A stretch of 58,149 nucleotides of DNA, from the NCBI GenBank assembly GCA_944386225.1, contig CALXAH010000022.1, positions 1 through 58,149 of the forward strand, written 5' to 3'. The position numbers were made by a program, and so were the translations under genes. The notes beneath the pieces are model-generated. The model had not been told where the DNA came from. It searched no databases and saw only the letters and a program-made list of their open reading frames with translations. Shown here in pieces: positions 3,286-57,602 of this stretch (its first letter is position 1; each line of letters opens with the position of its first letter). Origin of the DNA: an uncultured Gemmiger sp. (lineage in GTDB: Bacteria; Bacillota; Clostridia; Oscillospirales; Ruminococcaceae).

Positions 3286-3577
3286 TATGGGGGGATAGAA
3301 CCTATCCCCCCATACCCCCCGGAACACATGGCCGAATTTCTTCGGCCATAGGGAATGATATAACAAGGCCCGCGCAAACCGGAAACGGTCTGCGCGGGCC
3401 TTGCTTTGTATTTATCCCCAGGGCCGAAGATATTCGGCCCTGATTTCCGGGGGCCGGGTCTGCAAAGCAGCCAAGGCCGCAGTGCGGCCTTGGACCGGCA
3501 GTGCGGTCGGCGCAGCCGGGCGGGCGCATCGTTGTTGCGCCCGCAGCGCCGGGGGGACGTTGTCCCCCCAGATCGGC
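3286..3577 (+). repeat. Modular palindromic repeat, copy R1 (full length)
   Basis: Reference copy of the dispersed family. Hairpins in order: a, 3286-3314 (13-bp perfect arms TATGGGGGGATAG, 3-base loop); b, 3328-3349 (ATGGCCGAA/TTCGGCCAT); c, 3364-3403 (CAAGGCCCGCGCA/TGCGCGGGCCTTG, then CTTTGT, terminator-like); d, 3419-3442 (CAGGGCCGAA/TTCGGCCCTG); e, 3443-3577, itself made of CCAAGGCCGC/GCGGCCTTGG, GGGCGCA/TGCGCCC and GGGGGGAC/GTCCCCCC hairpins and ending CAGATCGGC. It fills the whole gap between two convergent genes, so it may also act as a two-way terminator. Confidence 0.92.
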
Positions 3578-4000
3578 TTACACGAACTCGAACAGGTTCA
3601 GGCCGATCTCATCGCTGAAACGGCGCTCGACGGTGCCGTCCACAACCCGCACCACCATCTCGCAGGTGGCGCTGACCAGGGCCCGGTTCAAATGGCCGCC
3701 CACCACGGCGCCGGTCTCGTCGCCGGCGGCCAGATGCAGGTGGGCGTAGAAGGCGCCCTCCTTGGTGGTGACGGTGCCGGTCAGGCTGACGATCTCATGA
3801 TCGCCGGTGAAACTGTTGGCCTTGTACTGCTTTTCGGCGGTGCGCAGCACCCCCACCGTAAACTCGTTGATTGCGCCGATGGCGCTCACCTGGGCCAGTT
3901 TGACCTGCTCGGCGGTGCAGACCTTTTCCAGCTGCTCCAGAATTTCCTCGCCCTTGTCCATCCGGATGAACAGGGTATCCTTGAACCGACGGTATTCCAT
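3578..4000 (-). CDS. PPC/DUF296 domain DNA-binding protein
   Basis: 140 residues, entirely a PPC (plants and prokaryotes conserved, DUF296) domain, a trimeric beta-fold. Diagnostic features: EILEQLEKVCTAEQVKLAQV with SAIGAI near residues 20-45, and FYAHLHLAAGDETGAVVGGH near 84-103, whose His residues are the conserved putative metal ligands. Bacterial members are single-domain and functionally poorly defined; plant relatives carry an AT-hook, absent here. Start ATG 4000 is preceded by AAGGAGTGACAGAGA. It is 15 bases downstream of mnmG, so probably the last gene of the mnmE-mnmG transcript. The TAA stop abuts repeat R1. Confidence 0.85.
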   Translation of the reverse strand: MEYRRFKDTLFIRMDKGEEILEQLEKVCTAEQVKLAQVSAIGAINEFTVGVLRTAEKQYKANSFTGDHEIVSLTGTVTTKEGAFYAHLHLAAGDETGAVVGGHLNRALVSATCEMVVRVVDGTVERRFSDEIGLNLFEFV

Positions 4001-4015
4001 TCTCTGTCACTCCTT

Positions 4016-5923
4016 TTATGCTTCGTCCGGGCCGTGCCCGGCGTTTGCCTGTTTGCGCCGCGCGGCGTGCAGCGCCACGCTGAGCACCGCGATGTCCGAG
4101 GGGGACACCCCCGGCACCCGGGCCGCCTGCCCCAGGCTTACCGGCCGGATGCGGGCCAGCTTTTCCCGGGCTTCCAGCCGCAGGCCTGTGAGGGGCGCGT
4201 AGTCAAAATCCGGCGGGATGGGGGTGTTCTCCTGCCGCTGCACCTGCCGCACCTGCCGCTGCTGCCGCTCGATGTAGCCGGCGTATTTCAGCTCGGTCTC
4301 AATGCGGCCCGCCATGCGGGCGTCCACCCCTTCGCCCCGGCCGATGATCCCGGCCAGCAGTTCGTAGGTCACGCCCGGGCGCAGCAGCAGTCCCGCCGCC
4401 ACGCCGCCCTGGGACGCGGGGGCCAGCCCCGCCGCCGCAAAGGGTTCGGCCAGCGCCGCGCCGGAGATCCGGGTGGCGTGCAGCCGGGCCAGCTCCGCCT
4501 TTTTGATGGCCATATCCTGCTCAAACCGCGCCCAGCGGGCATCGTCCACCAGACCGTATTCCCGGCCGATGAGGGTCAGACGCTCGTCCGCGTTGTCCTG
4601 GCGCAGGGTCAGCCGGTACTCGCTGCGGCTGGTCATCATCCGGTAGGGGTCCAGCACCCCCTTGGTGACCAGATCGTCCACCAGGGTGCCCAGATAACTG
4701 GAGGACCGGGGCAGGATCAGCTGGCTTTTGCCCAGCGCGGCCCGGGCGGCGTTCAGCCCGGCCAGCAGGCCCTGGGCCGCGGCCTCCTCGTAGCCGCTGG
4801 TGCCGTTGAACTGCCCCGCCCCGTACAGCCCGGCCACCGCCTTGCATTCCAGCGTGGCGGCCAGGGCGGTGGGGTCGATGCAGTCGTACTCGATGGCGTA
4901 GGCCGGGCGCATGATCTCCAGCCGCTCAAACCCCACGATGCTGCGGTACATGGCCACCTGCACATCCTCCGGCAGGCTGCTGCTCATGCCCTGCAGGTAC
5001 ATCTCGTCGGTGTCCTCGCCGCAGGGTTCCACAAAGATCTGGTGCCGGTCCTTTTCCGCAAACCGCACCACCTTGTCCTCAATGGAGGGGCAGTACCGGG
5101 GCCCGATGCCCTCGATCTTGCCGCCGTACAGCGGGCTGCGGTGCAGGTTTTCCCGGATGATCCGGTGGGTCTCCGGGTTGGTCCAGGCAATGTGGCAGGC
5201 CACCTTGTTCCGCATGGGGGTGCGGGTCAGAAAACTGAAGGGCTGCAGCAGCTCGTCCGGGTCGCCGGGCTGGCACTCCAGCTTGTCAAAATCAATGCTG
5301 CGCCGGTGCACCCGGGCCGGGGTGCCGGTCTTGAACCGGCGCAGCGGCAGGCCCAGGGCTTTCAGGCTCTCGGTCAGGGCGGTGGCGGCGTGCTGGCCGT
5401 CCGGCCCGCTGGGGTAATCCGCCCCGCCCACAAAGATCTTGCCGCCCAGGTTGGTGCCGGTGGCGATCACCACGCACTTTGCCCCGTAATACCCGTCCAG
5501 ACGGGTGCGCACCCCGGTGACCCGGCCGTTTTCGGCCAGGATATCGGTCACCTCCGCCTGTTTCAGTGCAAGGCCCGGCGTGCGCTCCAGAAACAGCTTC
5601 ATATAGTCGTGGTAGCGCCGCCGGTCGGTCTGCACCCGCAGGCTGTGCACCGCCGGGCCCTTGCCCCGGTTGAGCATCCGGCTCTGCAGATAGGTGGCGT
5701 CCGCCGCCAGACCCATCACGCCGCCCAGCGCGTCCACCTCCCGCACCAGATGGCCCTTGGCGGTGCCGCCGATGCTGGGGTTGCAGGGCATGTTGCCGAT
5801 GCCGTCCAGGCTCAGGGTAAACAGCCCGGTGTGCGCGCCCAGCACCGCCGCCGCGTGGGCGGCCTCGATGCCGGCGTGGCCCGCGCCGATCACGATCACG
5901 TCAAAATCTCCCAGATGGATCAC
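4016..5923 (-). CDS. mnmG: tRNA uridine-5-carboxymethylaminomethyl modification enzyme MnmG (GidA)
   Basis: 635 residues, the usual length. FAD-dependent partner of MnmE; together they install the (carboxy)methylaminomethyl group on the wobble uridine of several tRNAs. Seen: N-terminal FAD motif [18 protein letters not shown], the family signature [21 protein letters not shown], and [20 protein letters not shown] in the second half, followed by the [16 protein letters not shown] stretch and the C-terminal helical domain that binds MnmE. The start is GTG at 5923 with GAGGAGAG upstream. Only 15 bases separate it from the mnmE stop, so mnmE-mnmG form one operon, as in many Firmicutes. Confidence 0.98.
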
Positions 5924-5938
5924 TGTTTTTCTCTCCTC

Positions 5939-7324
5939 TTACTTTCCCACACAGAAGCGGCTGAACACTTCCTCAATCACCGCTTCGTCGGCAGCTTCGC
6001 CGGTCAGTTCATACAGCGCCTGCAGCGCCTCGTCCACGCAGACGCCCACCGCGTCCAGGCCGAAGCCCTGCTGCCCGGCGGCCAGCGCGTCCTCCAGCGC
6101 GTTGCGGGCGGCGGTGGCGGCGGCCAGCTGACGCTGCCCGCTCAAACAGCCCGCCGAGGGGTCCAGGTTGGCCACCCCCAGCAGGGTCTCCACCCGGCCC
6201 GCCAGCAGCTGCAGGCTGGCCGGGTCTCTGGCGGACAGGTGCATCACATCGGAGAAGCACCCCTCCAGCACCGATTCGTCAAATACCTGCGCCCCGGCGT
6301 CCTGCTTGTTCACCAGCGCCAGCGCCGGACGGCCCCGGCACAGCTGCGCCAGCCGGGCATCCTCGTCGGTGGCGGGTTCGCTGGCGTCAAACACCGCCAG
6401 CACCAGCCCGGCGGCGTCCAGCGCCTTGTAGCTGCGGCGGATGCCCTCCGCCTCCACTGCGTCGGCGGTTTCCCGCAGACCGGCGGTGTCGCTCAGGTTC
6501 AGCCGCACGCTGCCCAGCTGCACCGTCTGCTGCACCACGTCCCGGGTGGTGCCGGCCACCGGGGTCACGATAGCCCGCTCAAACCCCGCCAGCAGGTTCA
6601 GCAGGGTACTTTTGCCCACGTTGGGCCGGCCCACGATGGCGGTATCCACCCCGCCCAGGGCCACCGCCCCCGCGCCCCACTGGTCGATCATGGTCTGGAT
6701 CTTATCCCGGCAGCCGGTCAGGGTGGCGGTCAGGGCGGCCGGCTCCAGAGCGGGCACGTCCTCCTCGGGGAAATCCACCCAGGCGGCCAGATGGGCGGCC
6801 AGGGCGGTCAGATCCTCCCGGATCGCCCCGATCCGCCGGGCCACCGCCCCGTCCAGGCTGGCCGCGGCCAGCGCCGCGCCCTGCCGCCCGGCGGCCTGGA
6901 TAGCGTCCATCACCGCCTCGGCCTGGGTCAGGCTGATACGGCCGTTTTCAAAGGCGCGGCGGGTGAACTCCCCCGCCCCGGCGGGCCGGGCGCCCGCCGC
7001 CAGGCAGGCCTGCACCAGCCCCTCGGCCATGGCGCTGCCCCCGTGGCAGCTCAGCTCCACCACATCCTCGCCGGTGTAGCTGCGGGGCGCGCGGAAGCAC
7101 AGGGCCACCGTCTCGTCCAGCACCGAACCGTCCGGCCGCAGGCTGTGGCCGAACAGGGCGGTATAGCCCTTGGCCTGGCTCAGTTTGCGGGCGGGGTTGG
7201 CCGGGCGGAACACCGTTTCCGCGATCGGGTAGGCCTGGGGGCCGCTGATGCGTACCACCGCGATGCCCCCCACCCCCGGCGGGGTGGCCAGGGCGCAGAC
7301 GGTGGCCGAAAGATCCATTGACAT
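5939..7324 (-). CDS. mnmE: tRNA modification GTPase MnmE (TrmE)
   Basis: 461 residues. N-terminal tetrahydrofolate-binding domain (about 1-118), helical domain, and an inserted Ras-like G domain: G1 IVGRPNVGKST, the TPVAGTTRD switch, G3 DTAG, G4 NKQD. The chain ends FSRFCVGK, matching the conserved C-terminal C-(I/L/V)-G-K that positions the catalytic cysteine. Partner of MnmG. ATG 7324 follows GGAGGAAATTGCC; a second in-frame ATG is two codons in. First gene of its operon: a hairpin at 7353-7379 separates it from the upstream LytM genes, which read the same way. Confidence 0.98.
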   Translation of the reverse strand: MSMDLSATVCALATPPGVGGIAVVRISGPQAYPIAETVFRPANPARKLSQAKGYTALFGHSLRPDGSVLDETVALCFRAPRSYTGEDVVELSCHGGSAMAEGLVQACLAAGARPAGAGEFTRRAFENGRISLTQAEAVMDAIQAAGRQGAALAAASLDGAVARRIGAIREDLTALAAHLAAWVDFPEEDVPALEPAALTATLTGCRDKIQTMIDQWGAGAVALGGVDTAIVGRPNVGKSTLLNLLAGFERAIVTPVAGTTRDVVQQTVQLGSVRLNLSDTAGLRETADAVEAEGIRRSYKALDAAGLVLAVFDASEPATDEDARLAQLCRGRPALALVNKQDAGAQVFDESVLEGCFSDVMHLSARDPASLQLLAGRVETLLGVANLDPSAGCLSGQRQLAAATAARNALEDALAAGQQGFGLDAVGVCVDEALQALYELTGEAADEAVIEEVFSRFCVGK

Positions 7325-7352
7325 GGCAATTTCCTCCTTGCCGGAAAAGACG

Positions 7353-7379
7353 GAAAACCACGCGCGGGGGCGTGGTTTT
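7353..7379 (-). terminator. Hairpin terminator between the LytM pair and mnmE
   Basis: AAAACCACGC/GCGTGGTTTT arms, followed on the minus strand by TTTTCC. It lies just after the TAA-proximal end of the 7390 gene. Confidence 0.65.
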
Positions 7380-7389
7380 CCCGAAAGAT

Positions 7390-8784
7390 TTACCGGAACA
7401 GAACGCCCGGGTTCACGTTGCGCCAGACGCTCCAGGGGTCCAGCGCCGCGCCGCCCAGCCGCATATCGCAGACCACGTGCCCCTGGGTGGTGGCCACGGC
7501 CTGGCCCTGGGTGACGTAGTCGCCCTCGCTGACCTTGATGCTGCCCAGCAGATAGAACAGGCTCTTGAGCCCGCCGCCGTGCTCGATGACCAGGGTGCGG
7601 CCGGTGCTGCTGAGGGTACCGGTGTAGACCACCCGGCCCGCCGCGGGGCTGACCACGGTGCTGCCCGCGGGGGTGGAAAAGGTAACGTTGACGCTGTGCC
7701 GGGGGGTGATCAGGGCGTTGGCCGCGTCGATCTGGGCCTGCAGCACCGCCTGCAGTTCCACCGGATAGGTGGCCATGAGCAGCGGGTCGGCCTGGACGCG
7801 GTCGGTGTATTCGTACACGTCGTAGTCCCGCACCAGGGTACCCTGCACCGGCTGCACAAAGCCGTCCTGGGCCCAGTACACATCCGGGTCCACAATGTCC
7901 ATGACCTCGTCCAGCGCGGCGGGCACCGCCCCGATGTAAGGGGCGGCGGCGGTGCCGTCGGCGGTGTAGGTATCCAGTTCCCGCACCTCGCGGCCGTAGA
8001 CCCGCACGGTGGGGGTCAGTTCATACTCGCCGGAACGGATATGCAGCACATACTCGCCGCCGGGGCAGTCGCCCGGAACACCCAGATAGGCCAGCCAGGC
8101 GCCGTTGTACTTGATAAAGACCGCTTCGCCCAGGTCGGTGGTCAGGCTGGGGGGCACATCGCCCAGCACACCGGTCACCCGGATGCCCAGCACACCGCCC
8201 TGCACCACCGATTCGCCGCTCAATTCCACCTGAGGCTCGGCGTTCATGGTAAAGGATACCCGGTACACATCCTCCCCGGTGACCCCCTGCCCCACCTGGG
8301 CGGCGGGCTGGGTCACGGTGATGGCCAGGGTATAGTCCCCGTCGGCGGCAAAGCGGTAGCTGGCAAACTGTTCCCCGCCGCCCTCAAACAGCACCGAACC
8401 GTCGGCGCCGGTCAGGGTGATTTTGGCGTCCATGCCCTTGGGCAGGGTCAGCTGGGGATCGCTTACCTGCACATCCGCCAGCACCGCGCCGTCCGCCTCC
8501 GGGTTTGTGCCCGAAAAGCTGCGCTTGATAAACCCGGCCACCGGCACCTGCCAGTCCCACTGGGCAGCCGACAGGGTCTGGCCCGCAAAGGTGACGGTGC
8601 GGTCGGGCAGGGCCTCCTCGGTGACGGCCCGGTACATTACCAGCACCACGCCGCCCACGATCAGCGCCACGATCAGCACCACCATGCCCAGCCATACCAG
8701 CAGGGTACCCCACCAGGGCCGGGCAGCGGTTTCCTCTTCCTGTTCCTCCTGCTGTTCCAGCAGGCTCTGCTCCTGTTCGCTCAC
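7390..8784 (-). CDS. Membrane-anchored protein with degenerate LytM/M23 domain (paralog 1)
   Basis: 464 residues. Gln/Glu-rich cytoplasmic head, one membrane segment at about 25-50 (WWGTLLVWLGMVVLIVALIV), a long extracytoplasmic middle of beta-rich Ig-like character, and a C-terminal LytM fold (TFSTPAGSTVVSPAAGRVVY to DMRLGGAALDPW). The M23 zinc sites are degraded: the usual HxxxD becomes HSVNV and the final HxH region reads VVCDMRLGG with no His. A hydrolase role is therefore unlikely; a scaffolding or amidase-activating role, as for EnvC/NlpD-type or SpoIIQ-like degenerate LytM proteins, is an inference. GTG start at 8784 with AAGGAGGGATCG upstream, 44 bases after its paralog. Confidence 0.8.
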   Translation of the reverse strand: MSEQEQSLLEQQEEQEEETAARPWWGTLLVWLGMVVLIVALIVGGVVLVMYRAVTEEALPDRTVTFAGQTLSAAQWDWQVPVAGFIKRSFSGTNPEADGAVLADVQVSDPQLTLPKGMDAKITLTGADGSVLFEGGGEQFASYRFAADGDYTLAITVTQPAAQVGQGVTGEDVYRVSFTMNAEPQVELSGESVVQGGVLGIRVTGVLGDVPPSLTTDLGEAVFIKYNGAWLAYLGVPGDCPGGEYVLHIRSGEYELTPTVRVYGREVRELDTYTADGTAAAPYIGAVPAALDEVMDIVDPDVYWAQDGFVQPVQGTLVRDYDVYEYTDRVQADPLLMATYPVELQAVLQAQIDAANALITPRHSVNVTFSTPAGSTVVSPAAGRVVYTGTLSSTGRTLVIEHGGGLKSLFYLLGSIKVSEGDYVTQGQAVATTQGHVVCDMRLGGAALDPWSVWRNVNPGVLFR

Positions 8785-8828
8785 GAAACGATCCCTCCTT
8801 GCCGCCCGCGCCGGGCGGCGGTCTGCGC

Positions 8829-10082
8829 TCAGGCCGGGTTGTAGAACAGCCCGCCCTGCCCCCGGATGGCCATCCAGGGATCAATGCTCTTGTTGCCGAT
8901 CTTCAGCTCGTATTTGAGCAGGTCGCTGCCGGCGGTGCCTACCGCCGCGCCGCGCTCCACCGCCGCGCCGGTTTCCACCGTCAGGGAACCCAGCCGGTAC
9001 AGATAACTCTTGACCCCGCAGCCATGGTCGATGACCACCGTGTTGCCGGTCAGCAGCAGCTTGCCCGCAAAGGCCACCGTGCCGGCGGCCGGGCTGACGA
9101 CCTGGGCGCCCTCGGCGGCGGCCCATTCCACGCCGGTGCTGCGCACCGCCTGCTGGCTGCCGTTCTTGTACTCAAACACGCCGAAATCCAGGCTCACGTC
9201 CCCCTCCACCGGCTGGGCAAAGGCCCCGTTCCAGCGGATTTCCCCCGCGCCGGTGGTGTAGAGCGGCCAGATCTTTTCCCGGAATTCCGCGCTGGCCCCG
9301 GCGGGCTCGTCCGGATCGGCACCGGTGGTGTAGACCTTGGCAAAGTCCCGGTGCTGCACCGTGACGGTGTCCTCCAGCACAAAGCTGCCCACCGTGACGG
9401 TCAGGGCGTGATCCCCGGCCTCGGCGTTGTAGGCGGCGGGGATAAAGCCCAGCCAGCCGCCCTCCACCGGGGCCAGCCAGACGCTGCCCAGTTCGCAGTC
9501 GATGGACGGGGCCACGCCCGCGTCCAGGATGTTGCTTATGTAGACCGCGCACACCTCGCCCCGGGTGATGGTGTCATCCGAGAGGGTCAGGGTGGGCTGG
9601 GCGGCCAGGGTGAACCGGAACCGGTACCGGTAAAAGCCCGCGGGCTTGGCGGGCTTGCCGCCCATCACCCGCCCGGCGGTAAGCAGGCCCTGGTAGTCCC
9701 CGTTGGCGGGCAGCCGCACACTGGCAAGGCCGGACACCGGCCCATTGTAGACCTGGGTGCCGTCCGCGGCGGTAAGCACCAGGAAGCTGCCCGCCGGGTC
9801 CAGGCCGTCGGCCAGCACCACGGCGGGGGTAACCTGGTCAATGGTGCCCAGATCCTGCACGTCGGCGGTGACGCTCTGCTGGAAGGTGCGCCAGACCACC
9901 CCGCCCAGCACCGGCACGCCCCAGCTGTAGCCGTTTACGGTGAGGGACTGCCCGGCAAAACTCGCGCCCTGGGCGGGCAGGTAGGCGGCGGTGGTGCGGC
10001 TGTAGAGAAAGCCCACCGTGCCCCCTACCACCAGCACCACAAACAGGGCCACCATGGTAAGCCAGGTGAGGATTTTTTTCAT
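8829..10082 (-). CDS. Membrane-anchored protein with degenerate LytM/M23 domain (paralog 2)
   Basis: 417 residues from ATG 10082, chosen for the adjacent AAGGAGGTG; a longer frame to 10148 lacks support. One N-terminal membrane segment (ILTWLTMVALFVVLVVGGTV), an extracytoplasmic middle resembling that of the next gene, and a C-terminal LytM fold (GVEWAAAEGAQVVSPAAGTV to ELKIGNKSIDPW). Both zinc motifs are lost: STGVEW replaces HxxxD and LLKYELKIG replaces the HxH segment. Shared phrases with paralog 1 (VVSPAAG.V, LVIEHG/VVIDHG, SIDPW/ALDPW) show duplication. First gene of a two-gene operon. Confidence 0.8.
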   Translation of the reverse strand: MKKILTWLTMVALFVVLVVGGTVGFLYSRTTAAYLPAQGASFAGQSLTVNGYSWGVPVLGGVVWRTFQQSVTADVQDLGTIDQVTPAVVLADGLDPAGSFLVLTAADGTQVYNGPVSGLASVRLPANGDYQGLLTAGRVMGGKPAKPAGFYRYRFRFTLAAQPTLTLSDDTITRGEVCAVYISNILDAGVAPSIDCELGSVWLAPVEGGWLGFIPAAYNAEAGDHALTVTVGSFVLEDTVTVQHRDFAKVYTTGADPDEPAGASAEFREKIWPLYTTGAGEIRWNGAFAQPVEGDVSLDFGVFEYKNGSQQAVRSTGVEWAAAEGAQVVSPAAGTVAFAGKLLLTGNTVVIDHGCGVKSYLYRLGSLTVETGAAVERGAAVGTAGSDLLKYELKIGNKSIDPWMAIRGQGGLFYNPA

Positions 10083-10253: not shown

Positions 10254-10265
10254 CTGTGCAGGTGC

Positions 10266-11763: not shown

Positions 11764-11789
11764 AGGGGCACCTCATAAACAGCGGGGCA

Positions 11790-12406: not shown

Positions 12407-12546
12407 GCGGGGGCCCGGACCCGATGGGTCCGGGGTTCCGGGTCTGCGAAACAGCCAAAGCCCCGGTGGGGCTTTGGACCGGCGAAACGGTCCGCGAAGC
12501 GGAACGGGCGCATCGTTGTTGCGCCCGTAGTTTCCGCAGGCCATTT
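12407..12546 (+). repeat. Modular palindromic repeat, copy R2 (partial, d/e modules)
   Basis: Carries CGGACCC-gat-GGGTCCG, then the e-type block GGGTCTGCGAAACAGCC with the CCAAAGCCCC/GGGGCTTTGG hairpin and the GGGCGCATCGTTGTTGCGCC hairpin. It lacks modules a-c and the terminal CAGATCGGC. Together with the terminator at 12606-12642 it accounts for most of the 320-base gap between two convergent genes. Confidence 0.8.
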
Positions 12547-15618: not shown

Positions 15619-15923
15619 GCCAATCTGGGGGGAATCACCGAGGGCTGCGGGCGCAACAAGAATGCGCCCGCCCGGCTGCGCCGACCGCCCTGCCGGTCCA
15701 AAGCCCCACTGGGGCTTTGGCTGCTTCGCAGACCCGGCCCCCAGACCCCGGAAATCAGGGCCAAATGTCTTTGGCCCTGAGGATTTTATATGAAGCAAGG
15801 CCCACGCGAACAGAAATAACTTGGCGCGGGCCTTGTTACTAATATCAAATCCCTGGGGCCAGAGTATTCTGGCCCCGATTTCCGGGGGGTATGGGGGGAT
15901 AGGTTCTATCCCCCCATATTGGC
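15619..15923 (-). repeat. Modular palindromic repeat, copy R3 (full length, inverted)
   Basis: Inverse orientation to R1: e block first (15630-15760, with CCAAAGCCCC/GGGGCTTTGG), a d-type hairpin (GGGCCAA/TTGGCCC), a c-type hairpin (AAGGCCCACGCG/GCGGGCCTTG, weakened), a second d/b-type hairpin (GGGGCCAGA/TCTGGCCCC), and module a at 15890-15918, whose 13-bp arms are identical to those of R1. The outermost GGGGGG hairpin near 15627 is decayed. It separates gpr from spoIIP. Confidence 0.9.
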
Positions 15924-27421: not shown

Positions 27422-27976
27422 ATGCTGTTGACCACCGAACGGCTGCTGCTGCGGCCCTGGCAGGAAACCGATGTGAACGATCTGTATTTCTATTCCCGGG
27501 ACCCGGACGTGGGCCCGGCCTGCGGCTGGGCGCCCCATCAGAGTGTGGAGGAAAGCCGGGCGGTGCTGCGGGGCATCCTGTCCGGCCCGGAGTGCTACGC
27601 GTTGTGCATCAAGGAAACCAACAAGCCCATCGGCACGGCGGAGCTGATGCTGCGGGGCAACACCGATGTGACCGACCGGGCGGATGAGTGCGAGCTGGGC
27701 TACTGGCTGGGCAAGCCCTACTGGGGTCAGGGGTACATGCCGGAGGCTGCGGCGGAGCTGCTGCGCCACGCGTTCGAGGATCTGAACATGCGGACGGTCT
27801 GGTGCGGCTACCACGAGGGCAACGACAAGTCCCGCCGGGTGCAGGAAAAGCTGGGGTTTGTGTTCCACCACGCCCATCCGGTGCAGGTGCTGGGCCGGGA
27901 GCGGATCAGCCGCGTGAACCGGCTAACCCGGGAACAGTGGCTGGCCCGGCGGTTAGGGTTGATCTGGGGGATATAA
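27422..27976 (+). CDS. GNAT acetyltransferase, RimJ/RimL type
   Basis: 184 residues. Typical start TTERLLLRPWQETDVNDLYF and acetyl-CoA loop CELGYWLGKPYWGQGYMPEA, ending with ...GYHEGNDKSRRVQEKLGF, all as in RimJ/RimL-like protein N-acetyltransferases; the substrate is unknown. ATG 27422 has AAAAAGGAGG upstream. Downstream of the GNAT-MnmM gene by 26 bases, so likely co-transcribed. The last residues (LIWGI) and the TAA stop are encoded inside repeat R4, suggesting the repeat trimmed or extended the original C-terminus. Confidence 0.9.
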   Translation: MLLTTERLLLRPWQETDVNDLYFYSRDPDVGPACGWAPHQSVEESRAVLRGILSGPECYALCIKETNKPIGTAELMLRGNTDVTDRADECELGYWLGKPYWGQGYMPEAAAELLRHAFEDLNMRTVWCGYHEGNDKSRRVQEKLGFVFHHAHPVQVLGRERISRVNRLTREQWLARRLGLIWGI

Positions 27977-28178
27977 CATATCCCCCCGCGCTGCGGGCGC
28001 AACAACGATGCGCCCGCCCGGCTTCGCCGACCGCGCTGCCGGTCCAAGGCCCCACTGGGGCCTTGGCCGCTTCGCGGACCCGGACCCCCGAAAATCGGGC
28101 CGGAATACTCCGGCCCTCGGGATACCATAAAAGAAACAGGCACGCGCAAACCATGTTGGTTCTTCGTGGGCCTCGCTT
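27961..28178 (-). repeat. Modular palindromic repeat, copy R4 (inverted, overlaps a gene end)
   Basis: Opens with GATCTGGGGGATATAAC and the GGGGGATAT/ATATCCCCC hairpin, then an inverted e block (GGGCGCA/TGCGCCC, CCAAGGCCCC/GGGGCCTTGG), d-type GGGCCGGA/TCCGGCCC, and a decayed c module (CACGCGCAAACC...). It overlaps the final codons and stop of the acetyltransferase gene. Confidence 0.88.
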
Positions 28179-28241
28179 TTTTGATTCTGCCGCTTATTTC
28201 GATGACGGCAGATACACAACGCCCCTTTCCCGGGAAATGTA

Positions 28242-30328: not shown

Positions 30329-30707
30329 CGACAACATCAAGCGGCTGCCGGACGCGGAGCTGGAGATCATGAAGGAGTTGTGGGCAGCCGGCGAACCGCT
30401 GACCCGGCCTCAGCTGGAAGCGCGGCTGGCCCGCAAAAGCTGGACCAGCACCACCCTGCTGGCGCTGCTGGCCCGGCTGGAGAACAAAGGGTTTGTGAGC
30501 CGCCAAAAGCAGGGCAAGGGCTATCTGTACGCCGCCCAGGTGACCCGGCAGGAATACCTGCCGGTGGAAAGCCGGTCGGCGCTGGGCCGGATGTTCGGCG
30601 GCAGCGCCCGCAACCTGGTGGCCGCCCTGGCCGAGACCCACGCCCTCTCGGACACGGACATCGACGAGCTGGCCGCGTATCTGGAACAGCTGCGCCGCAA
30701 AGGCTGA
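30318..30707 (+). CDS. BlaI/MecI/CopY-family transcriptional repressor
   Basis: 129 residues. Winged helix (LPDAELEIMKELWAAGEPLT, STTLLALLARLENKGFVSRQ, KQGKGYLYAAQVTRQEY) followed by a short helical dimerisation tail, as in BlaI/MecI. Expected to bind the double operator at 28254-28300 and to be inactivated by the M56 protease encoded just upstream. The order protease-repressor with overlapping reading frames guarantees balanced synthesis. Its TGA stop lies in the first bases of repeat R5. Confidence 0.93.
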   Translation: MNNNDNIKRLPDAELEIMKELWAAGEPLTRPQLEARLARKSWTSTTLLALLARLENKGFVSRQKQGKGYLYAAQVTRQEYLPVESRSALGRMFGGSARNLVAALAETHALSDTDIDELAAYLEQLRRKG

Positions 30708-30903
30708 TCTGGGGGAATCAACGATTCCCCCAGACCCCCGGAAATCATGGCCGAAACAATTCGGCCATGGGGAATAGTACAGAATTAAGGCCCGCGCAAA
30801 CCATTTTGGTTCGGCGCAGGCCTTGCTTTTGTTTTATCCCGAGGGCCGAGTATTCGGCCCTCTGTTTCCGGGGTCTGGGGAGACGTTGTCTCCCCAGATC
30901 GGC
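30703..30903 (+). repeat. Modular palindromic repeat, copy R5
   Basis: Same orientation as R1: a (GGGGGAATC/GATTCCCCC), b (ATGGCCGAA/TTCGGCCAT), c (AAGGCCCGCGC.../...GCAGGCCTT then GCTTTTG), d (GGGCCGA/TCGGCCC) and the terminal GGGGAGAC/GTCTCCCC hairpin with CAGATCGGC. The central part of e is missing, showing that modules are gained or lost as units. It begins within the blaI-like stop codon. Confidence 0.92.
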
Positions 30904-32634: not shown

Positions 32635-32760
32635 GGCCAATATGGGGGAATCAACGATTCCCCCATACCCCCGGAATCATGGCCGGAATACTCCGGCCAT
32701 AGGGGATTTTACGGATATGCAAAAGACCCGCGCGGACTGGAATTCTGCGCGGGCCCTTTT
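32635..32760 (+). repeat. Modular palindromic repeat, copy R6 (a-b-c only)
   Basis: a (ATGGGGGAATC/GATTCCCCCAT), b (ATGGCCGGA/TCCGGCCAT, both arms changed relative to R1), c (GACCCGCGCGGA/TCTGCGCGGGCC then CTTTTACTT). It starts 2 bases after the prfC stop and could serve as its terminator. Confidence 0.9.
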
Positions 32761-34997: not shown

Positions 34998-35103
34998 GAG
35001 CCAATATGGGGGACCAGTCCCCCATACCCCCACTAAGCGGGACGATAATTCGTCCCGCGATTTCCGGGGGTCTGGGGGATATGTTATATCCCCCAGATCA
35101 GCC
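34998..35103 (+). repeat. Modular palindromic repeat, copy R7 (short)
   Basis: a-type GGGGGAC/GTCCCCC hairpin, d-type GCGGGACGA/TCGTCCCGC hairpin, then TTTCCGGGGG and the terminal GGGGGATAT/ATATCCCCC hairpin with CAGATC. It sits inside the spoVA operon between spoVAD and spoVAE. Confidence 0.88.
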
Positions 35104-36512: not shown

Positions 36513-36604
36513 AGTCTCCTCCTCCTTTGTCTTTTGCCAGTGTACCACATTCCGGGACAGTGCGGGCCTGCCAGTTCTGCGCGCAACTGTGCCAATCCGG
36601 AAGA

Positions 36605-36648
36605 AAACCGGCAGGGCCGGGGCGCAATGCGCCCCGGCCCTGCCGGTT
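36605..36648 (-). terminator. 44-bp perfect palindromic terminator (copy 1)
   Basis: Perfect arms AAACCGGCAGGGCCGGGGCG + CA, with no spacer, followed on the minus strand by TTTTCTTCC. A 40-bp identical core recurs at 40945-40984. Ends the alpha/beta hydrolase transcript. Confidence 0.82.
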
Positions 36649-36671
36649 TGTATATAAGAGGAGAAAACAAT

Positions 36672-40836: not shown

Positions 40837-40944
40837 TTCCGCTTCCTCCTTTTTCATATATCAACCAATATTTTCACATCTGTTTTCACACCCAGCCTAC
40901 CACAGATTGGCGGCGAACGCAAGCCCATACCGGCGGCGCGAAAA

Positions 40945-40984
40945 ACCGGCAGGGCCGGGGCGCAATGCGCCCCGGCCCTGCCGG
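40945..40984 (-). terminator. 40-bp perfect palindromic terminator (copy 2)
   Basis: Arms ACCGGCAGGGCCGGGGCGCA and its complement, followed on the minus strand by TTTTTCGC. Same core sequence as at 36605-36648. Ends the sugar operon after the SIS gene. Confidence 0.85.
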
Positions 40985-41032
40985 TCTGTGTAGGCTGCCG
41001 CGCGGCCGGAAAGCCGCACAACAAGGGGGATC

Positions 41033-51470: not shown

Positions 51471-51487
51471 CAGAGATTTTGCCGGTT

Positions 51488-51777
51488 GCCGATAGGGGGG
51501 TCATTGACCCCCATGCCCCCTTCAAGCGGGCCGAATCCTCGGCCCGCGGGAAACATAAACAGCAAGGCCCGCGCACAGCCGGACGGCTCGCGCGGGCCTT
51601 GTTCTATATCATTCCCTGGGGCCGGAGTATTCCGGCCCCGATTTCCGGGGGTCCCGGGTCTGCGAAGCAGCCAAGGCCGCGGTGCGGCCTTGGACCGGCA
51701 ACGCAGTCGGCGCAGCCGGGCGGGCGCATCGTTGTTGCGCCCGCAGCGCCGGGGGGACGTTGTCCCCCCAGATCGGC
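51488..51777 (+). repeat. Modular palindromic repeat, copy R8 (full length)
   Basis: Same orientation as R1. a is modified (GGGGGGTCA/TGACCCCC), b-type GCGGGCCGA/TCGGCCCGC, c CAAGGCCCGCGC/GCGCGGGCCTTG then TTC, d GGGGCCGGA/TCCGGCCCC, and an e block differing from that of R1 at only about five positions over roughly 120 bases. Ends CAGATCGGC. The high match over e implies recent spread or gene conversion. Fills most of a 384-base gap. Confidence 0.93.
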
Positions 51778-51790
51778 TTTGCCGCCCCGG

Positions 51791-51819
51791 TTGCCCCTGG
51801 CGGCAAAGTGTGGTACACT
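51791..51819 (+). promoter_or_regulatory. Promoter of the alpha/beta hydrolase-GPH symporter operon
   Basis: TTGCCC (51791-51796), 17-base spacer, TACACT (51814-51819), directly after repeat R8. Confidence 0.6.
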
Positions 51820-51854
51820 TTATTGCAACACCATGTAAAAAGGGAGGGGCCGGG

Positions 51855-52823
51855 ATGATCGACCGGAAACGATACGTGACCCTGGGCAATCTGCCCCAGA
51901 AGATCCACGTAAAAGGCGACGAAACCAAACCGCTGCTGCTGTTCCTGCACGGGGGCCCGGGGGTGTGCAACCGGCACACCGTCATGACCACCCACGCGGA
52001 TCTGCAGCGGGATTTTCTCGTGGTGGCCTGGGATCAGCGGGGCAGCGGCGGCTCCTATAAAGGCGCGAAGCCCGAAACCCTGACCATTGACCGTCTGGTG
52101 GAGGACGCCCGGGAACTGGTGGCCTGGCTGTGCCGGGAATACCGGCGTAAAAAGGTCTATCTGCTGGGCGGCAGCTGGGGTTCCCAGCTGGGCACCCTGC
52201 TGGCGCACCGGTATCCGGAACAGGTGGTCGCCTATGTGGGCTTCGGCCAGGTGGTCAACGGGGCGGAAAACGAGCGGCTCAGCTACGCCTTTGCCCTGCA
52301 GGAGGCCAAAAAGGCCGGCGACACCGCCGCCATCCGCAAACTGAAACGGGTAGGCCCGCCGGAAAACGGCGTGTACAAGGGCGGTTTTGCGGGCATGATG
52401 ACCCAGCGCCGGGTCATGATGAAATACGGCGGCTATTCCCAAAGCAAGGCCAAGCGCAGCTATTTTTCCAGCATGGTGGTGCCGATGCTCTTTTCCGGGG
52501 AATACTCCCCCGCCGACCTGATCGGGGTGGCCAGAGGATACAAGTACGTCCTGACCGCCATGTGGCCCCAGGTGGGCGCGTCGGATCTGGCCCGGGACTG
52601 CCGGGAGTTCCGGGTTCCCTACTTCATCTTTGACGGGGTGCTGGATCAGAACACCCCCGCGGCGCTGGTGCAGGCCTATTTTGACGGCATCACCGCCCCG
52701 AAAAAGGAGCTGATCTGGTTCGAGCACTCGGGCCACAACCCCATGACCGACGAGCCGGAACGGTTCAAATCCCTGCTGCGTGACCGGCTTCTCACCCTGG
52801 AAAAGGAGGACCCCACCCTATGA
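51855..52823 (+). CDS. Alpha/beta hydrolase, proline iminopeptidase-like
   Basis: 322 residues, soluble. LLLFLHGGPGVCNRHTV holds the HGGPG oxyanion motif, VAWDQRGSGGSY follows, nucleophile elbow GGSWGSQLGTL (Ser at about 113), catalytic Asp in FIFDGVLDQNTPAALV and His in WFEHSGHNPM. This set is that of the S33 family; many members act on peptides or esters rather than proline peptides. ATG 51855 after AGGGAGGGGCCGGG. The stop overlaps the next gene (ATGA), so hydrolysis and transport are probably linked. Confidence 0.9.
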   Translation: MIDRKRYVTLGNLPQKIHVKGDETKPLLLFLHGGPGVCNRHTVMTTHADLQRDFLVVAWDQRGSGGSYKGAKPETLTIDRLVEDARELVAWLCREYRRKKVYLLGGSWGSQLGTLLAHRYPEQVVAYVGFGQVVNGAENERLSYAFALQEAKKAGDTAAIRKLKRVGPPENGVYKGGFAGMMTQRRVMMKYGGYSQSKAKRSYFSSMVVPMLFSGEYSPADLIGVARGYKYVLTAMWPQVGASDLARDCREFRVPYFIFDGVLDQNTPAALVQAYFDGITAPKKELIWFEHSGHNPMTDEPERFKSLLRDRLLTLEKEDPTL

Positions 52824-54214
52824 ATGAATCCGCCATCCCCCGCCTGAAATTTCCCGAGAAATTCGGGTTCTTTACCTTCTCCACCGCCAGCAACGTGGTG
52901 TACCAGTTCAAGAGCCTGTACTATCTGTTCTTTCTCACCAACGTGCTCAAGATCGACGTGCTGGCCGCGGGCCTGATCCTGACCATCGGCACCATCTGGG
53001 ACGCCGTCAACGACCCGCTGATCGGGTTCTGGTCGGTGAACCACAAGTTCAAAAACGGCGAGCGGTGCCGCCCCTTTGCCCTCTGGTTCGCGGTGCCCTG
53101 GGCGCTGTCGGTGGTGGCGCTGTTCTGCGATTTCCGCACCAGCCAGACGGTCACCGTGATCCTGGCGCTGGTGATCTATTTTATCTTTGAGTCCTTCAAC
53201 ACCTTTGTGGCCATCCCCTACAACAGCATGGGCGGCCTGGCCACCAACCGGGACGAGGACCGCCGCTCCATCAACGTGTACCGCAACCTGGGCGGCTGCC
53301 TGGGCAGCGGCATCGGGGCGGTGGCCTGTCTGCCGCTGCTCAAGGTGTTCGGCGCCCTGGACGAAACCGGCAACCTGATCGACGGTTCCAGTGCCCGGGG
53401 CTTCCTGCTCACCGCCATGGTGATGGGGGCGGTGTGCGTGATCGGCAGCCTGGCCCACTACTTCACCACCCGGGAACGGGTGCGCCAGATCGCCGACGAC
53501 GAGGATCATGTAAGCCCGCTGGCCGCAGCCAGCATGCTGCTGCGCTGCCGCTCCTGGGTGCTGAACATGTTCTATATCATCTGCTACGGCGTCAACAACG
53601 TGCTCATCATGAGTTCCATCACCTACTACGCCACCTATGTGATGGGCAGCACCGCCGCCGCCACCGCCATCCAGGCGGTGTACCTGGTGGTGTCCATCGT
53701 CACCACCCTGCTGGTGGGCCCGCTGGACCGGCTGCTGGGCCGCAAGCGCACCATGCTGTTCGGCGCGGCGGTACTGGTGCTGGGCAAGATCTGGTTTGTG
53801 CTGGATCCCTGGTCCACCGGGGCGATCTATACCAACGCGGTAACGGTGGGCATCGGCCTGGCCATTGCCTTTGTGATGTTCAACACCAACCGGAACAACA
53901 TCGCCGATCTGATCGAATGGAGCAGCGGCCGCCGGATCGACAGCCTGGTCTCCACCGGGGACAACCTGGCCGCCAAGCTGGCTCAGGCGGGCGCCACCCA
54001 GCTGCTGACGGTGGCGCTGCACCTGTCCGGCTTCAACGAGGCGCTGCCCGCCCAGCCCGCCGCCACCCTGGACACCATCAACGCCCTGCTGGGCTGGGTG
54101 CCCGGTCTGGTGACCCTGGTGATGCTGGCCGTGCTGCTGGCCATGGACATTGAGGGCGACATGCGCCGCATGAACCAGGAAAAAGCCGCCCGCGGCATCC
54201 CGGTCTCGGGCTGA
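52820..54214 (+). CDS. GPH-family cation symporter (glycoside-pentoside-hexuronide type)
   Basis: 464 residues, about 12 helices. KFGFFTFSTASNVVYQFKSL resembles the N-terminal helix of MelB-like symporters, GTIWDAVNDPLIGFWSVNHK carries the WDxxNDPxxG cation-site motif, and FNTFVAIPYNSMGGLATNRD EDR matches the PY-x-x-(M/L)-x(3)-T-x-D-x-x-(D/E)R loop. Expected substrate: a sugar, glucuronide or small glycoside carried with Na+ or H+. Coupled to the upstream hydrolase by an ATGA overlap. Confidence 0.92.
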   Translation: MNESAIPRLKFPEKFGFFTFSTASNVVYQFKSLYYLFFLTNVLKIDVLAAGLILTIGTIWDAVNDPLIGFWSVNHKFKNGERCRPFALWFAVPWALSVVALFCDFRTSQTVTVILALVIYFIFESFNTFVAIPYNSMGGLATNRDEDRRSINVYRNLGGCLGSGIGAVACLPLLKVFGALDETGNLIDGSSARGFLLTAMVMGAVCVIGSLAHYFTTRERVRQIADDEDHVSPLAAASMLLRCRSWVLNMFYIICYGVNNVLIMSSITYYATYVMGSTAAATAIQAVYLVVSIVTTLLVGPLDRLLGRKRTMLFGAAVLVLGKIWFVLDPWSTGAIYTNAVTVGIGLAIAFVMFNTNRNNIADLIEWSSGRRIDSLVSTGDNLAAKLAQAGATQLLTVALHLSGFNEALPAQPAATLDTINALLGWVPGLVTLVMLAVLLAMDIEGDMRRMNQEKAARGIPVSG

Positions 54215-54229
54215 CAGCCGAGAGCTGAA

Positions 54230-54262
54230 TCCGGGGGATATGTTATATCCCCCAGATCGGCC
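54230..54262. repeat. Modular palindromic repeat, copy R9 (minimal, one hairpin)
   Basis: GGGGGATAT-gtt-ATATCCCCC with CAGATCGG. It is only the terminal hairpin of the family, between two convergent genes. Confidence 0.8.
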
Positions 54263-54272
54263 TCTGTCTCCC

Positions 54273-55181
54273 TCACCAGTACCGCTTGCGGCGGAAGTAG
54301 ACTACGCAGCCGCCCACCACCAGCACGCTCACGGCAATCACCATCGGGTACCCGTAGGGCCATCGCAGTTCCGGCATATAGGCAAAGTTCATGCCGTACC
54401 AACCCACAATCAAGGACAGTGGCATAAAAATTGTGGTCACGATGGTCAGCAGCTTCATGATCCGGTTCTGGGCAATATCCACCTGTGCCTGGTACTCGCT
54501 GCTCACCTGGCTGGCGTACTCCCGCAGCAGCTGGGTCTCGCTCTGCAGCCGGTCCAGCCGCCGCAGCACATACAACAGCCGGCTCTGGCTGCACTCGTCC
54601 AGCAGATCGGCCGCGTTCTCCTGCAGGGTGGTCACCAGATCGTCCAGCTGGGCATAGAACCGGTTGCGCTGGTTCAGTTCCCGGCGCAGGCGGCTCATCC
54701 GGGCGATAAACCCTTCCGTGTGGCTCTCCAGCACCGCCTTCTCCAGTTCCGAAATCTGATCCTCCATCGCCTGGATCTCGCCCAGATCCTCCGCCACCAG
54801 CGCCAGAAAAAAGTCCATCAGCAGATCGTCCGCCGCGTCGGCGTGATGGGGCCGCATCCGGCGCACCGTTTCCAGGCAGGCCGCCGCGGTTTCGCCCGGA
54901 TCCACAAACAGCAGGCTGTTCTCCCACCAGGCAAACAGCAGGTTCCGGGCCTTGCGCCCGCCCTTGGCCGGAACGTGCAGTTCCCCCTGGATGCAGTCCG
55001 GCTCCACCGTCAGGCGGCAGCCACGGCAGCCGGCCAGCCGTTCCGCCGCCTGCTCCGCCACGCCCCGGGGCAGCCCTGCGCCGGCCAGTTCCTCCGGCCG
55101 CAGAACCGCCGCCAGTCCCTGCCAGCCGTTCCGTGCCCCCTGGGGCTCCTCGGCCAGCTTTTCCGCGATGCGATAGTACAT
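54273..55181 (-). CDS. CorA-family divalent metal transporter
   Basis: 302 residues. Large cytoplasmic domain with the long stalk helix (TTLQENAADLLDECSQSRLL ...YVLRRLDRLQSETQLLREYA), then two membrane helices with the hallmark YGMNF between them (about 263-267), followed by a basic tail FRRKRYW. Transports Mg2+ or Co2+, possibly in the efflux-like subgroup. ATG 55181 after CGAAACGGGGGAGACGG. It is 24 bases downstream of an M42 peptidase gene, probably co-transcribed. Confidence 0.95.
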   Translation of the reverse strand: MYYRIAEKLAEEPQGARNGWQGLAAVLRPEELAGAGLPRGVAEQAAERLAGCRGCRLTVEPDCIQGELHVPAKGGRKARNLLFAWWENSLLFVDPGETAAACLETVRRMRPHHADAADDLLMDFFLALVAEDLGEIQAMEDQISELEKAVLESHTEGFIARMSRLRRELNQRNRFYAQLDDLVTTLQENAADLLDECSQSRLLYVLRRLDRLQSETQLLREYASQVSSEYQAQVDIAQNRIMKLLTIVTTIFMPLSLIVGWYGMNFAYMPELRWPYGYPMVIAVSVLVVGGCVVYFRRKRYW

Positions 55182-55205
55182 CCCGTCTCCCCCGTTTCGT
55201 CTGTA

Positions 55206-56258
55206 TTACGCCAGTTCCAGATACAGCCCCGCCAGTTCCATGGTGGCGTGCAGCGCGTCCAGATGGGTGCGCTCCATGCCGTGGGAGGCATGCACCCCCG
55301 GCCCGATCAGCGCCGCCCGGGCGTCCATGCCCGCGCCCCAGGCAGCCCCCACGTCCGAGCCGTAATGGGGGTAAATGTCCACCGCATAGTCCACGCCGTT
55401 GGCCGCGGCCAGCTTTACCAGACGGCTCACCATCTCGTAGTCATAGGGCCCGCGGCTGTCCTTGGCGCAGATGGATACCTGATACTCGGTGCAGGACAGA
55501 TCCTCCCCGATGCAGCCCATATCCACGGCCAGCAGCTCGTCCACCGGCGGCAGGGTGGCGCCGCCGTGGCCCACCTCCTCGTGTACGGTAAAGGTCATCC
55601 AGGTGTCGAACCGGGGCCGCTCGCCGGTATGTTTCATCCGCCACAGCAGCGCCAGCAGGCAGGACGCGCTGGCCTTGTCGTCCAGAAACCGGGATTTCAC
55701 AAACCCGCTTTCGGTGATCACCGTCTTGGGATCGTAGCACACATAATCGCCGGCCGCGATACCCAGCGCCTGCACGTCCGCCTTGCTGTGCACCTTCTCG
55801 TCGATCCGCACCGCCATGTTTTTCTCGTCCCGGGCGCGGGTGGCCGCGTCGTCCTGCACGTGCACCGACGGCGACAGCCCCAGCACCGTGCCGGCGTACA
55901 CCCGGCCGTCCCGGGTGTAGATGCGGCAGTATTCCCCGTCCAGCGTGGGCATCAGCGGGCCGCCCACACGGGTCACCATCAGCATCCCGTCGGCGGTGAT
56001 GGAGCGCACCATCAGCCCCAGGGTATCCACATGGGCGCACAGGCCCACCCGGCGCCCCGGCTCCCGCCCGGGCACCGCCACCACCAGATTCCCCTTGTTG
56101 GTGCGCCGGGCCTCAAAGCCCAGTTCCCTGGCGATGCCTGCCGCCAGTTCCACCGCCCGGTCGGTAAACCCGCTGGGGCTGTCCTGCCCCAGCAGTTTGT
56201 ACAGCGTATCCCGCAGAAACGCGTCCTGCTCCTGTTTCAGGGTTTTATCCATCTTCAT
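55206..56258 (-). CDS. M42-family aminopeptidase (FrvX/PepA-like)
   Basis: 350 residues. Metal ligands in order: VGLCAHVDTLGLMV (His, Asp), KSRFLDDKASA (bridging Asp), VHEEVGHGGA (catalytic Glu-Glu), AVDMGCIGED (Asp) and ASHGMERTH (His). All M42 catalytic positions are present. Such enzymes are dodecameric cobalt/zinc aminopeptidases in the cytoplasm, trimming peptides. Two in-frame ATGs open it; 56258 is preceded by GGAGAGGATGAAACAAT. Divergent from the unknown lipoprotein gene. Confidence 0.93.
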   Translation of the reverse strand: MKMDKTLKQEQDAFLRDTLYKLLGQDSPSGFTDRAVELAAGIARELGFEARRTNKGNLVVAVPGREPGRRVGLCAHVDTLGLMVRSITADGMLMVTRVGGPLMPTLDGEYCRIYTRDGRVYAGTVLGLSPSVHVQDDAATRARDEKNMAVRIDEKVHSKADVQALGIAAGDYVCYDPKTVITESGFVKSRFLDDKASASCLLALLWRMKHTGERPRFDTWMTFTVHEEVGHGGATLPPVDELLAVDMGCIGEDLSCTEYQVSICAKDSRGPYDYEMVSRLVKLAAANGVDYAVDIYPHYGSDVGAAWGAGMDARAALIGPGVHASHGMERTHLDALHATMELAGLYLELA

Positions 56259-56490
56259 ATTGTTTCATCCTCTCTGGAAAATGGTTCATCCGGCTCCATC
56301 TTACAAAAAAATTCTCGGCTTGGCAAGTGCGGAATGGCTTCAACCCGTCACTCACCGCAAGAGCACCAGATAAAAGCCATGCCGCCTGTCATCCACCCGC
56401 CGGCGGACGTACCGTAAAGAAGCGGCTCGCTTTCCCACCCTGAAAATGGTATACTGAAAGCAGAAAAGAGCTTTGCCTGAGAAAGGGGCG

Positions 56491-57513
56491 ATGAAGATGA
56501 AGCCTGCCAAACGGCTGCTGGCAGCTTTGCTGGTCCTGGCTTTTGCAGGCTGTAGCCAGCCGAGCGAGACCCCGCCTGTCACTACGCCTGCCGAACAAGC
56601 CACTGCCACCCCTGCCCCTACCCAAAGTCCCGTTTTCTGGCAGGAATGGACCGACCCGTTTTCCCCCGAAGCGGCCCGGGAGCTGGAGAGTCGGGCCGGC
56701 AGCCGGTGGGAAGAGCAACTGAACCAGCCTTCCCGGTACGCCTGGGTGCTGGATATCCAGAGCCGGTACCTCCCTCCCGAACAGTGGAGCGAAGAACCGA
56801 ACCTGGCCAATATTCTGACATTTTTCCAGGATGTGGACAACATTGCCCTGGAGGAGGGAACAGCGGGCATCTGCCGGGTGGATTTCACCTTCTGGTACCA
56901 GCCGGAAACCTACTACATGGGCCCCCAGTACGGGGACGGCGCCTGCTATGTATATCTTCTGGTTTACCAGGATCCGGCCCGGGAGCCGCAGTGCATCAGC
57001 GCCTGGTATTCACCGGAGACTACCGCCCAGCGTCCGGAGAATCCTGATGCTTCCTCTCTGGGCTTGAATGATTACCAGTACACCATGCTGACCCACCAGT
57101 GCCGGGCGCTGGCCGCTGCGGGGATTACAGCGCTGCCGGAGCAATGGACTGCCCAGGAACTGGCCCGTTATCTGATGGCCCGGGGGCAGGACTTTGGCCG
57201 GAAACCGGAGGAATGGTCGACAAACAGGGCATACGATTTTCTGCCGGGAATGATCCTCAGCATCGACTTTACCGGGGAGGATGATGCGTGGGCCAACGCC
57301 CCGTCCCCGGATCTGTTAAAAGCCATCACCCCAGAGGATTGGGAGACAGCCCTGGTCGCCTTGGATACCCCGACCGGCAATTGGACTTACCAGAAGGAAG
57401 AGGAGCAGGTAACAGCGGTTCTGGAGGGAGACGTTGCGTACACCTTCTCTCTCTGTCCCGGTTTTGCAGAATGGAACAGCCGCACCTTCTGCACCGGCAT
57501 TCGGGAACTATAA
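56491..57513 (+). CDS. Lipoprotein of unknown function
   Basis: 340 residues. Lipoprotein signal MKMKPAKRLLAALLVLAFAG with Cys21 (lipobox FAGC), then a Pro/Thr/Ala tether and a soluble extracellular part rich in Trp, Tyr, Glu and Pro. No domain recognised; no repeats. ATG 56491 has GAAAGGGGCG upstream, and ATG 56497 is equally possible. Base composition is a little less G/C-rich than in neighbouring genes, hinting at accessory origin. A TATACT box at about 56450 may be its -10. Confidence 0.75.
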   Translation: MKMKPAKRLLAALLVLAFAGCSQPSETPPVTTPAEQATATPAPTQSPVFWQEWTDPFSPEAARELESRAGSRWEEQLNQPSRYAWVLDIQSRYLPPEQWSEEPNLANILTFFQDVDNIALEEGTAGICRVDFTFWYQPETYYMGPQYGDGACYVYLLVYQDPAREPQCISAWYSPETTAQRPENPDASSLGLNDYQYTMLTHQCRALAAAGITALPEQWTAQELARYLMARGQDFGRKPEEWSTNRAYDFLPGMILSIDFTGEDDAWANAPSPDLLKAITPEDWETALVALDTPTGNWTYQKEEEQVTAVLEGDVAYTFSLCPGFAEWNSRTFCTGIREL

Positions 57514-57542
57514 GCACCTGTGCACAGCTTTTTACTTTAAAA

Positions 57543-57602
57543 GCCAATCTGGGGCCACAGGCCCCAGACCCCATCCCGCGGGCCGGATCACTCCGGCCCG
57601 CA
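57543..57602 (+). repeat. Modular palindromic repeat, copy R10 (short)
   Basis: CCAATCTGGGGCC-ACA-GGCCCCAGA a-type hairpin and GCGGGCCGGA/TCCGGCCCGC b/d-type hairpin, then TTTTTATTG. It follows the lipoprotein gene. Confidence 0.78.

Follow-up and report, generated by a model that had tools for sequence, protein, structure and literature searches.

Palindromic gene-end elements of Gemmiger that lie inverted in place between species

Introduction

What are the long, hairpin-rich repeats that recur in the intergenic gaps of contig CALXAH010000022.1 of an uncultured Gemmiger sp.? This contig (C22; 58,149 bases, complete) is the window, that is, the whole stretch of DNA analyzed here, and belongs to a 3.38-Mb draft genome of 77 contigs (G000) whose host we call Gemmiger-like; G001, G002, and G003 are its congeners. 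An initial annotation of the window described ten copies (R1 to R10) of one dispersed, modular family with a likeness to repetitive extragenic palindromic (REP) sequences and miniature inverted-repeat transposable elements (MITEs). New here are the adjacency of the elements to stop codons, their in situ inversion at conserved positions, and the almost purely Watson-Crick stems S1 and S2 of their ends. The conserved positions with in situ inversion, the stop-codon adjacency, and a clustering near the origin were missed earlier because relatives are needed to see them. Judging from sequence, we give an even chance to the reading that these are genus-specific, two-way gene-end elements that would punctuate transcription units and whose arms would be flipped and kept perfect by template switching during replication.

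Element Structure and Distribution

A full element has two inverted ends of ∼70 bp, each with hairpins S1 and S2, flanking a terminator-like core hairpin. The inverted end (74 nt) starts with GCC-AT-A/C-T-GGGGGG and runs into S1, mostly with an AAC triloop; a linker near CCCCCGGAAATC follows, and then S2 with a four-base loop. The ends face each other across an A/T-rich stretch that holds the core hairpin, commonly AAGGCCCGCGC...GCGCGGGCCTT or AAGGCCGGTGCG...CGCACCGGCCTT. Across 48 cores, both sides are rich in T (7.1 and 6.8 T per 12 nt), and these cores show the sequence hallmark of intrinsic terminators, a GC-rich hairpin with a U-tract 3' of genes. An optional module of ∼100 bp is located at S1 of one arm and is also found alone, as at R2. 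It is present three times in tandem inside one gap (C3:133894-134180; L047), and a second hairpin family, near GTTTCCGNAGG-CATTTATCCC, hosts the same module at 12407-12546 of the window and at L034 and L041 (C12:69642, C21:40972).

All ten window places were read and folded, and nine (all but R2) were parsed into hairpins. The modular construction proposed for them holds, with R1, R3, R5, and R8 full and R4, R6, R7, and R10 without whole modules; R1 and R8 have seven hairpins each. Both orientations do occur, though the element itself is near-palindromic. Membership in a single family needs amendment: R1, R3 to R8, and R10 are full or partial copies and R9 is a deletion remnant, but R2 shares only the module, inside a different hairpin, and so does not belong to the main family.

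The expectation of further copies was borne out by a covariance model, which finds more in G000 and its congeners. Within G000, blastn with R8 gave at least 77 matches (E 1.8e-155 to 8.6e-4; 40 of 89 first-look candidates scored), and the covariance model of the 74-nt end gave at least 94 at E<=0.01 (150 of 520 candidates scored). Merging the 80 end-model matches at E<=1.1e-4 gives 49 loci, or about 48, because a contig break has split one element between the end of C12 and the start of C21. The family is thus dispersed in being multi-copy, but its copies are strongly clustered on contigs around dnaA. C12 and C21 hold 18 of the 49 loci versus 2.0 expected; after the split element is joined, 17 of about 48 are on these two contigs (138 kb) with dnaA. 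Loci per 100 kb number 15.3 on C21, 13.8 on C22, 11.3 on C12, and 2.5 on C4. C21 carries yidC, rnpA, dnaA, dnaN, recF, and gyrB, the gene set usual for the oriC region, and seven of its loci are left of dnaA and two right. In contigs of G001 and G002, C12 is joined with C21 and, at its far end, with C4, from which we infer the same joins in G000.

The family is restricted to one genus among the genomes searched. With R5 as blastn query it was found in 4 of 41 relatives, the same proportion as the ∼100-bp module. The end model, with 16 candidates per genome scored under stricter filters, found it in 4 of 297 genomes of the GTDB family, all one genus of 126; every genome of the genus (4 of 4) thus carries it, versus 0 of the 293 remaining genomes of that GTDB family. 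A pattern search of genomes yielded 22 stretches, 20 of them labelled Gemmiger; the other two (L069 and L082) were rejected as chance matches, neither of which extends into the linker and S2. Self-blast of 200 kb from another genus (G014) revealed no dispersed family of such type, with 7 self-palindromic matches of at least 40 nt versus 18 places in 196 kb of G000. There were no pattern matches in viral contigs and no matches of R5 in plasmids or of R8 in phages. The family was initially reported as unrecognized, and Rfam likewise had no match over the whole window at gathering score; searches of the accessible literature turned up no description of it.

The copies adjoin stop codons, often spanning a convergent gap from stop to stop. 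Genes were called with a crude codon-based caller of our own, on stretches selected for holding elements, and 21 of 62 G000 element places were set aside as shorter than 90 bp or without a flanking gene. The remaining 41 elements (≥90 bp, flanked by genes at either end) are in 22 convergent, 18 tandem, and 1 divergent gap, versus 75, 440, and 70 among all 585 gaps of the same stretches (Fisher p 4.6e-11), which sharpens the earlier statement that copies are mostly at gene 3' ends. In 15 of 22 convergent cases, the element is −1 to 11 bp from each of the two stop codons; in 13 of 18 tandem cases, the stop codon upstream is −6 to 10 bp away. On four whole contigs, elements are held by 13 of 24 convergent, 18 of 171 tandem, and 1 of 25 divergent gaps. 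In the sole divergent gap, which separates rnpA from dnaA, only a module is present (C21:30652-30782; L040/L041); it is 366 bp before dnaA, and G001 has it too.

Inversion in Place and Stem Evolution

Element positions are largely conserved between species, and many orthologues differ in orientation. Shared loci were placed across the four species by 800-bp flanks, and 56 pairs were compared in 40-bp windows, with both strands scored. For whole elements of at least 120 bp, 19 of 49 pairs score higher inverted. Between G000 and G001, whose flanks are mostly 90–99% identical (about 80–95% for the outgroup G002), 10 of 23 pairs do so. When compared against 29 G001 elements, which came from selected stretches and not all of G001, the orthologue was the best match in 17 of these 23 pairs, 7 of them inverted; C21:30652 and C22:12407, both among the 17, are module-type places. 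In the other six pairs a different element matches better than the orthologue, and arms or modules there have therefore been replaced or exchanged. R5 matches its G001 orthologue at 196 of 201 positions inverted versus 152 of 195 direct, between collinear flanks, and the next best G001 element scores 187 versus 377.

Flips occur at more than one level. The whole element is inverted at C22:30702, C12:17947, and C21:13954; at C12:8970 the inside was flipped and the outer S1 pair stayed in place; at C1:222654 the core loop alone was flipped. The G002 orthologues of C12:8970 and C12:17947 are oriented as in G000, not G001, placing these flips on the G001 side. Exact inverted matches between arms have a median of 10 and a maximum of 18 nt across 55 intact elements. 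Assembly error behind the flips is unlikely because 18 exact nt is shorter than the usual assembly k-mer. Compared with G001, 55 of 57 comparable hairpins outside elements are the same and 1 was called flipped but is not credible (0.2 against 0.4), giving 0 credible loop flips among 57 ordinary hairpins. Inside elements, 20 of 27 comparable hairpins are the same and 4 are flipped, two of which are module hairpins that travelled with the module.

Stems of the ends are almost free of mismatches. In 129 distinct ends, drawn from the best 150 of 165 matches, S1 and S2 together have 2585 Watson-Crick, 6 G.U, 9 A.C, and 7 other pairs. The corresponding counts are 2261, 52, 22, and 15 for 170 ordinary terminators of the same stretches and 931, 32, 34, and 10 for 61 element cores. 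An excess of G.U was considered as a mark of RNA selection; it is absent in S1 and S2 and present in ordinary terminators. G.U is the commonest intermediate in Bacillus cereus terminators (PMC5381666). In an alignment of 143 distinct ends, which was fitted to structure, 98.0% of stem cells pair versus 78.9% when shuffled and 29–60% with slid partners. Stem cells in these 143 rows changed on both sides in 520 cases and on one side in 25, of which 21 are at the outermost pair.

Selection on structured RNA only could be proposed to produce such stems: both strands would be transcribed and both would have to fold, keeping stems perfect, with inversions left to ordinary recombination. The covariation is strong, and two-way selection would forbid G.U and A.C together, as G.U on one strand is A.C on the other. 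Nevertheless, the core is needed by both transcripts and is the least perfect stem, whereas S1 and S2 are nearly flawless, and arms sharing at most 18 exact nt are short for RecA recombination. We regard this explanation as improbable.

Origin of the Elements

Comparison of orthologous loci also reveals turnover. R9 and G002:C18:22087 are lone S1 hairpins in which the left arm of one S1 is joined to the right S1, the product expected of a deletion between G-tracts. The module is present or absent between species at, for example, C20:6560, C20:13957, and C12:53946. At G001:C6:27245, a half element is next to a terminator, and G000 has the terminator without the half element; the difference could be a gain or a loss. 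Tandem 18-bp units (GGACCGGGACATCTGCGG) adjoin a half element at 58.6 kb of G001:C6 (L088/L089) and are not in G000.

Such gains and losses of a module between orthologues, together with long terminal inverted repeats in multi-copy, genus-restricted elements, are what would be predicted of MITEs, non-autonomous transposons moved via those repeats and left at gene ends by selection against gene disruption. The elements also resemble known MITEs (RUP/BOX and enterobacterial RU-1/RU-2) in their modularity and length of 100–300 bp. However, 55 intact elements show no convincing target-site duplication, with none at k>=4 and 3 of 55 at k=3, a level reached by 7 of 500 shuffles. No cognate Y1 transposase was found with PF01797, the one family tested (other transposase classes were not screened). 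Moreover, loci are largely common to species, and stop codons are adjoined at a nearly fixed distance. A MITE origin is thus unlikely.

Function like that of REPs and bacterial interspersed mosaic elements (BIMEs) is less probable still. Gyrase or nucleoid-protein binding sites between convergent genes, with termination secondary, would suit the clustering at the origin, the very perfect DNA palindromes, and a position of the kind familiar from REP/BIME, but a conserved core flanked on each side by T-rich sequence argues for termination. Like the REP, BIME, and REPIN repeats of enterobacteria and Pseudomonas, the elements are palindromic, multi-copy, intergenic mosaics of modules at gene 3' ends. 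Proposed roles for REP/BIME include termination, mRNA stability, and supercoiling (PMC3733652), and REPs are described as 20–40 bp long, with RAYT genes in many hosts (PMC3733652, PMC2817692). In contrast, Gemmiger elements reach ∼300 bp, run stop to stop, and are invertible, and their unit is a ∼70-bp two-hairpin end instead of a 20–40-bp unit with a tagged foot (GTAG/CGTC tags were not searched). The resemblance to REPs and MITEs noted at first holds as to appearance. The matching RAYT-type gene that was sought did not appear: PF01797 had 0 matches in G000, and the same search had matches in 5 of 14 control genomes.

An inverton, flipped by a recombinase as a phase switch, would account for in situ inversion between collinear flanks but is very unlikely, as flips are nested at differing levels with different arm sequences, no long crossover site is shared, and the payload is almost symmetric.

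The reading of these elements as two-way gene-end punctuation shaped by template switching combines a function and a mechanism. RNA polymerase arriving from either side would transcribe S1, S2, and the core with its U-rich tail and then stop, so each mRNA would end in protective hairpins and convergent genes would be insulated. Position, two-way T-rich flanks, and symmetry fit such a role. The elements resemble bidirectional intrinsic terminators in their GC-rich core hairpin, A/T-rich flanks on both sides, and compensatory stem evolution, but differ in the near absence of G.U from S1 and S2 and in having the core between four further hairpins. During replication, nascent strands may fold back on the hairpins and switch template at short inverted arms (about 10 nt). 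A switch would flip the spacer, copy one arm from the other, and sometimes delete between direct G-tracts. Template switching is in keeping with the multi-level flips between short arms, the nearly perfect stems lacking G.U intermediates, and the deletions at G-tracts. Given its near symmetry, the element would work as before after a flip, and the flip would be tolerated. Spacer inversion with arm homogenization, and the creation and maintenance of perfect stems, have been attributed to template switching (PMC8604942 and PMC8794818, respectively). Those descriptions concern yeast genes and RNA genes, unlike the whole intergenic, nested, bacterial elements at many loci described here.

Several observations weigh against this interpretation. 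The cores are less perfect than S1 and S2, the model that chose the counted ends was built on good stems, and stem cells are not independent events because a few S1 alleles recur. Four of 14 elements from flipped pairs have no exact inverted arm match of at least 8 nt, and microhomology alone is therefore thin there. The elements exceed the 57 control hairpins in length, and all genomes are drafts. Finally, the tandem copy at C21:23352, with a core-like hairpin by eye and only 29 bp to the next gene, is an exception.

More broadly, and only tentatively, these repeats may exemplify a bacterial class shaped by replication and not by a transposase: nested gene-end palindromes that are flipped and perfected by template switching, tolerated as direction-neutral, and concentrated near the origin, the region of highest fork traffic and copy number. 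The patterns suggest that DNA structure itself shapes element evolution. On the broader reading, what passes for "compensatory" evidence of RNA structure in repeats of this kind would largely be mutational, a warning that perfect covariation of intergenic hairpins need not imply RNA selection. The loci offer natural replicates for measuring in-place inversion and template-switch repair of palindromes in a bacterium, and clustering at dnaA provides a testable link among palindromes, replication, and gene order. Their layout also predicts a compact two-way terminator design that would function when inverted.

Copies in the Window

Positions and parts of the window copies are collected in table 1, with the loci inverted between G000 and G001.

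Table 1. Window copies and their parts, and loci inverted between G000 and G001 (window positions unless a contig is named)
Feature	Position	Strand	Structure
R1	3281..3577		full element, between convergent genes (stop 3278, stop 3578); left end 3281-3354 (S1 3286-3314, S2 3328-3349), core 3364-3403, S2 3419-3442, module 3449-3552, S1 3551-3569
R2	12438..12530	+	only the ∼100-bp module, within a different hairpin (12407-12546)
R3	15619..15923		full element; module 15644-15742 (- strand) in left S1, S2 15755-15780, core 15796-15835, S2 15855-15876, S1 15890-15918
R4	27958..28181		truncated; S1 27966-27986, module 27985-28088 (- strand), S2 28097-28116, degenerate core, without right end
R5	30703..30903		full element without module; S1 30708-30734, S2 30746-30769, core 30787-30824, S2 30841-30862, S1 30874-30898
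R6	32636..32760	+	single end (S1 32641-32667, S2 32679-32700) and hairpin 32727-32753, without right end; after prfC
R7	35000..35102		S1-S2-S1 (35005-35026, 35037-35058, 35071-35097), without terminator core
R8	51488..51777		full element; core 51563-51601, module 51647-51752 (+ strand) in right S1
R9	54225..54262		lone S1 hairpin (54229-54257), between convergent genes; deletion remnant
R10	57543..57605	+	one end only (S1 57548-57568, S2 57578-57601)
Inverted loci	C12:8970, C12:17947, C13:14177, C20:13957, C21:13954, C21:27109, C22:30702

R1 is identical to its G001 orthologue at 296 of 298 positions, with orientation unchanged, and the R2 orthologue in G001 is identical at 140 of 140; the R2 module is 82% identical over 93 bp to the family module. 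The R9 orthologue in G002 is 282 bp, and that of R7 in G002 likewise lacks the core (by eye). R3 is 3' of gpr and 5' of spoIIP, both genes on the - strand, R5 is flanked by a BlaI/CopY-like repressor gene and prfC, and R7 follows spoVAD, 22 bp ahead of the next gene.

Two neighboring genes extend into elements. The TGA stop of the gene upstream of R5 is supplied by R5 (30703-30707), and the gene ahead of R4 runs into S1 (27976), where G001 has an earlier TAA. The window also contains two perfect, terminator-like palindromes of 51 nt (36604-36654 and 40942-40992), which are separated by 4.3 kb, share 96% identity, and have no relation to the family, and, at the contig end, an 86-nt direct repeat with an inner palindrome (57642-57727 and 58061-58146; 94% identical).

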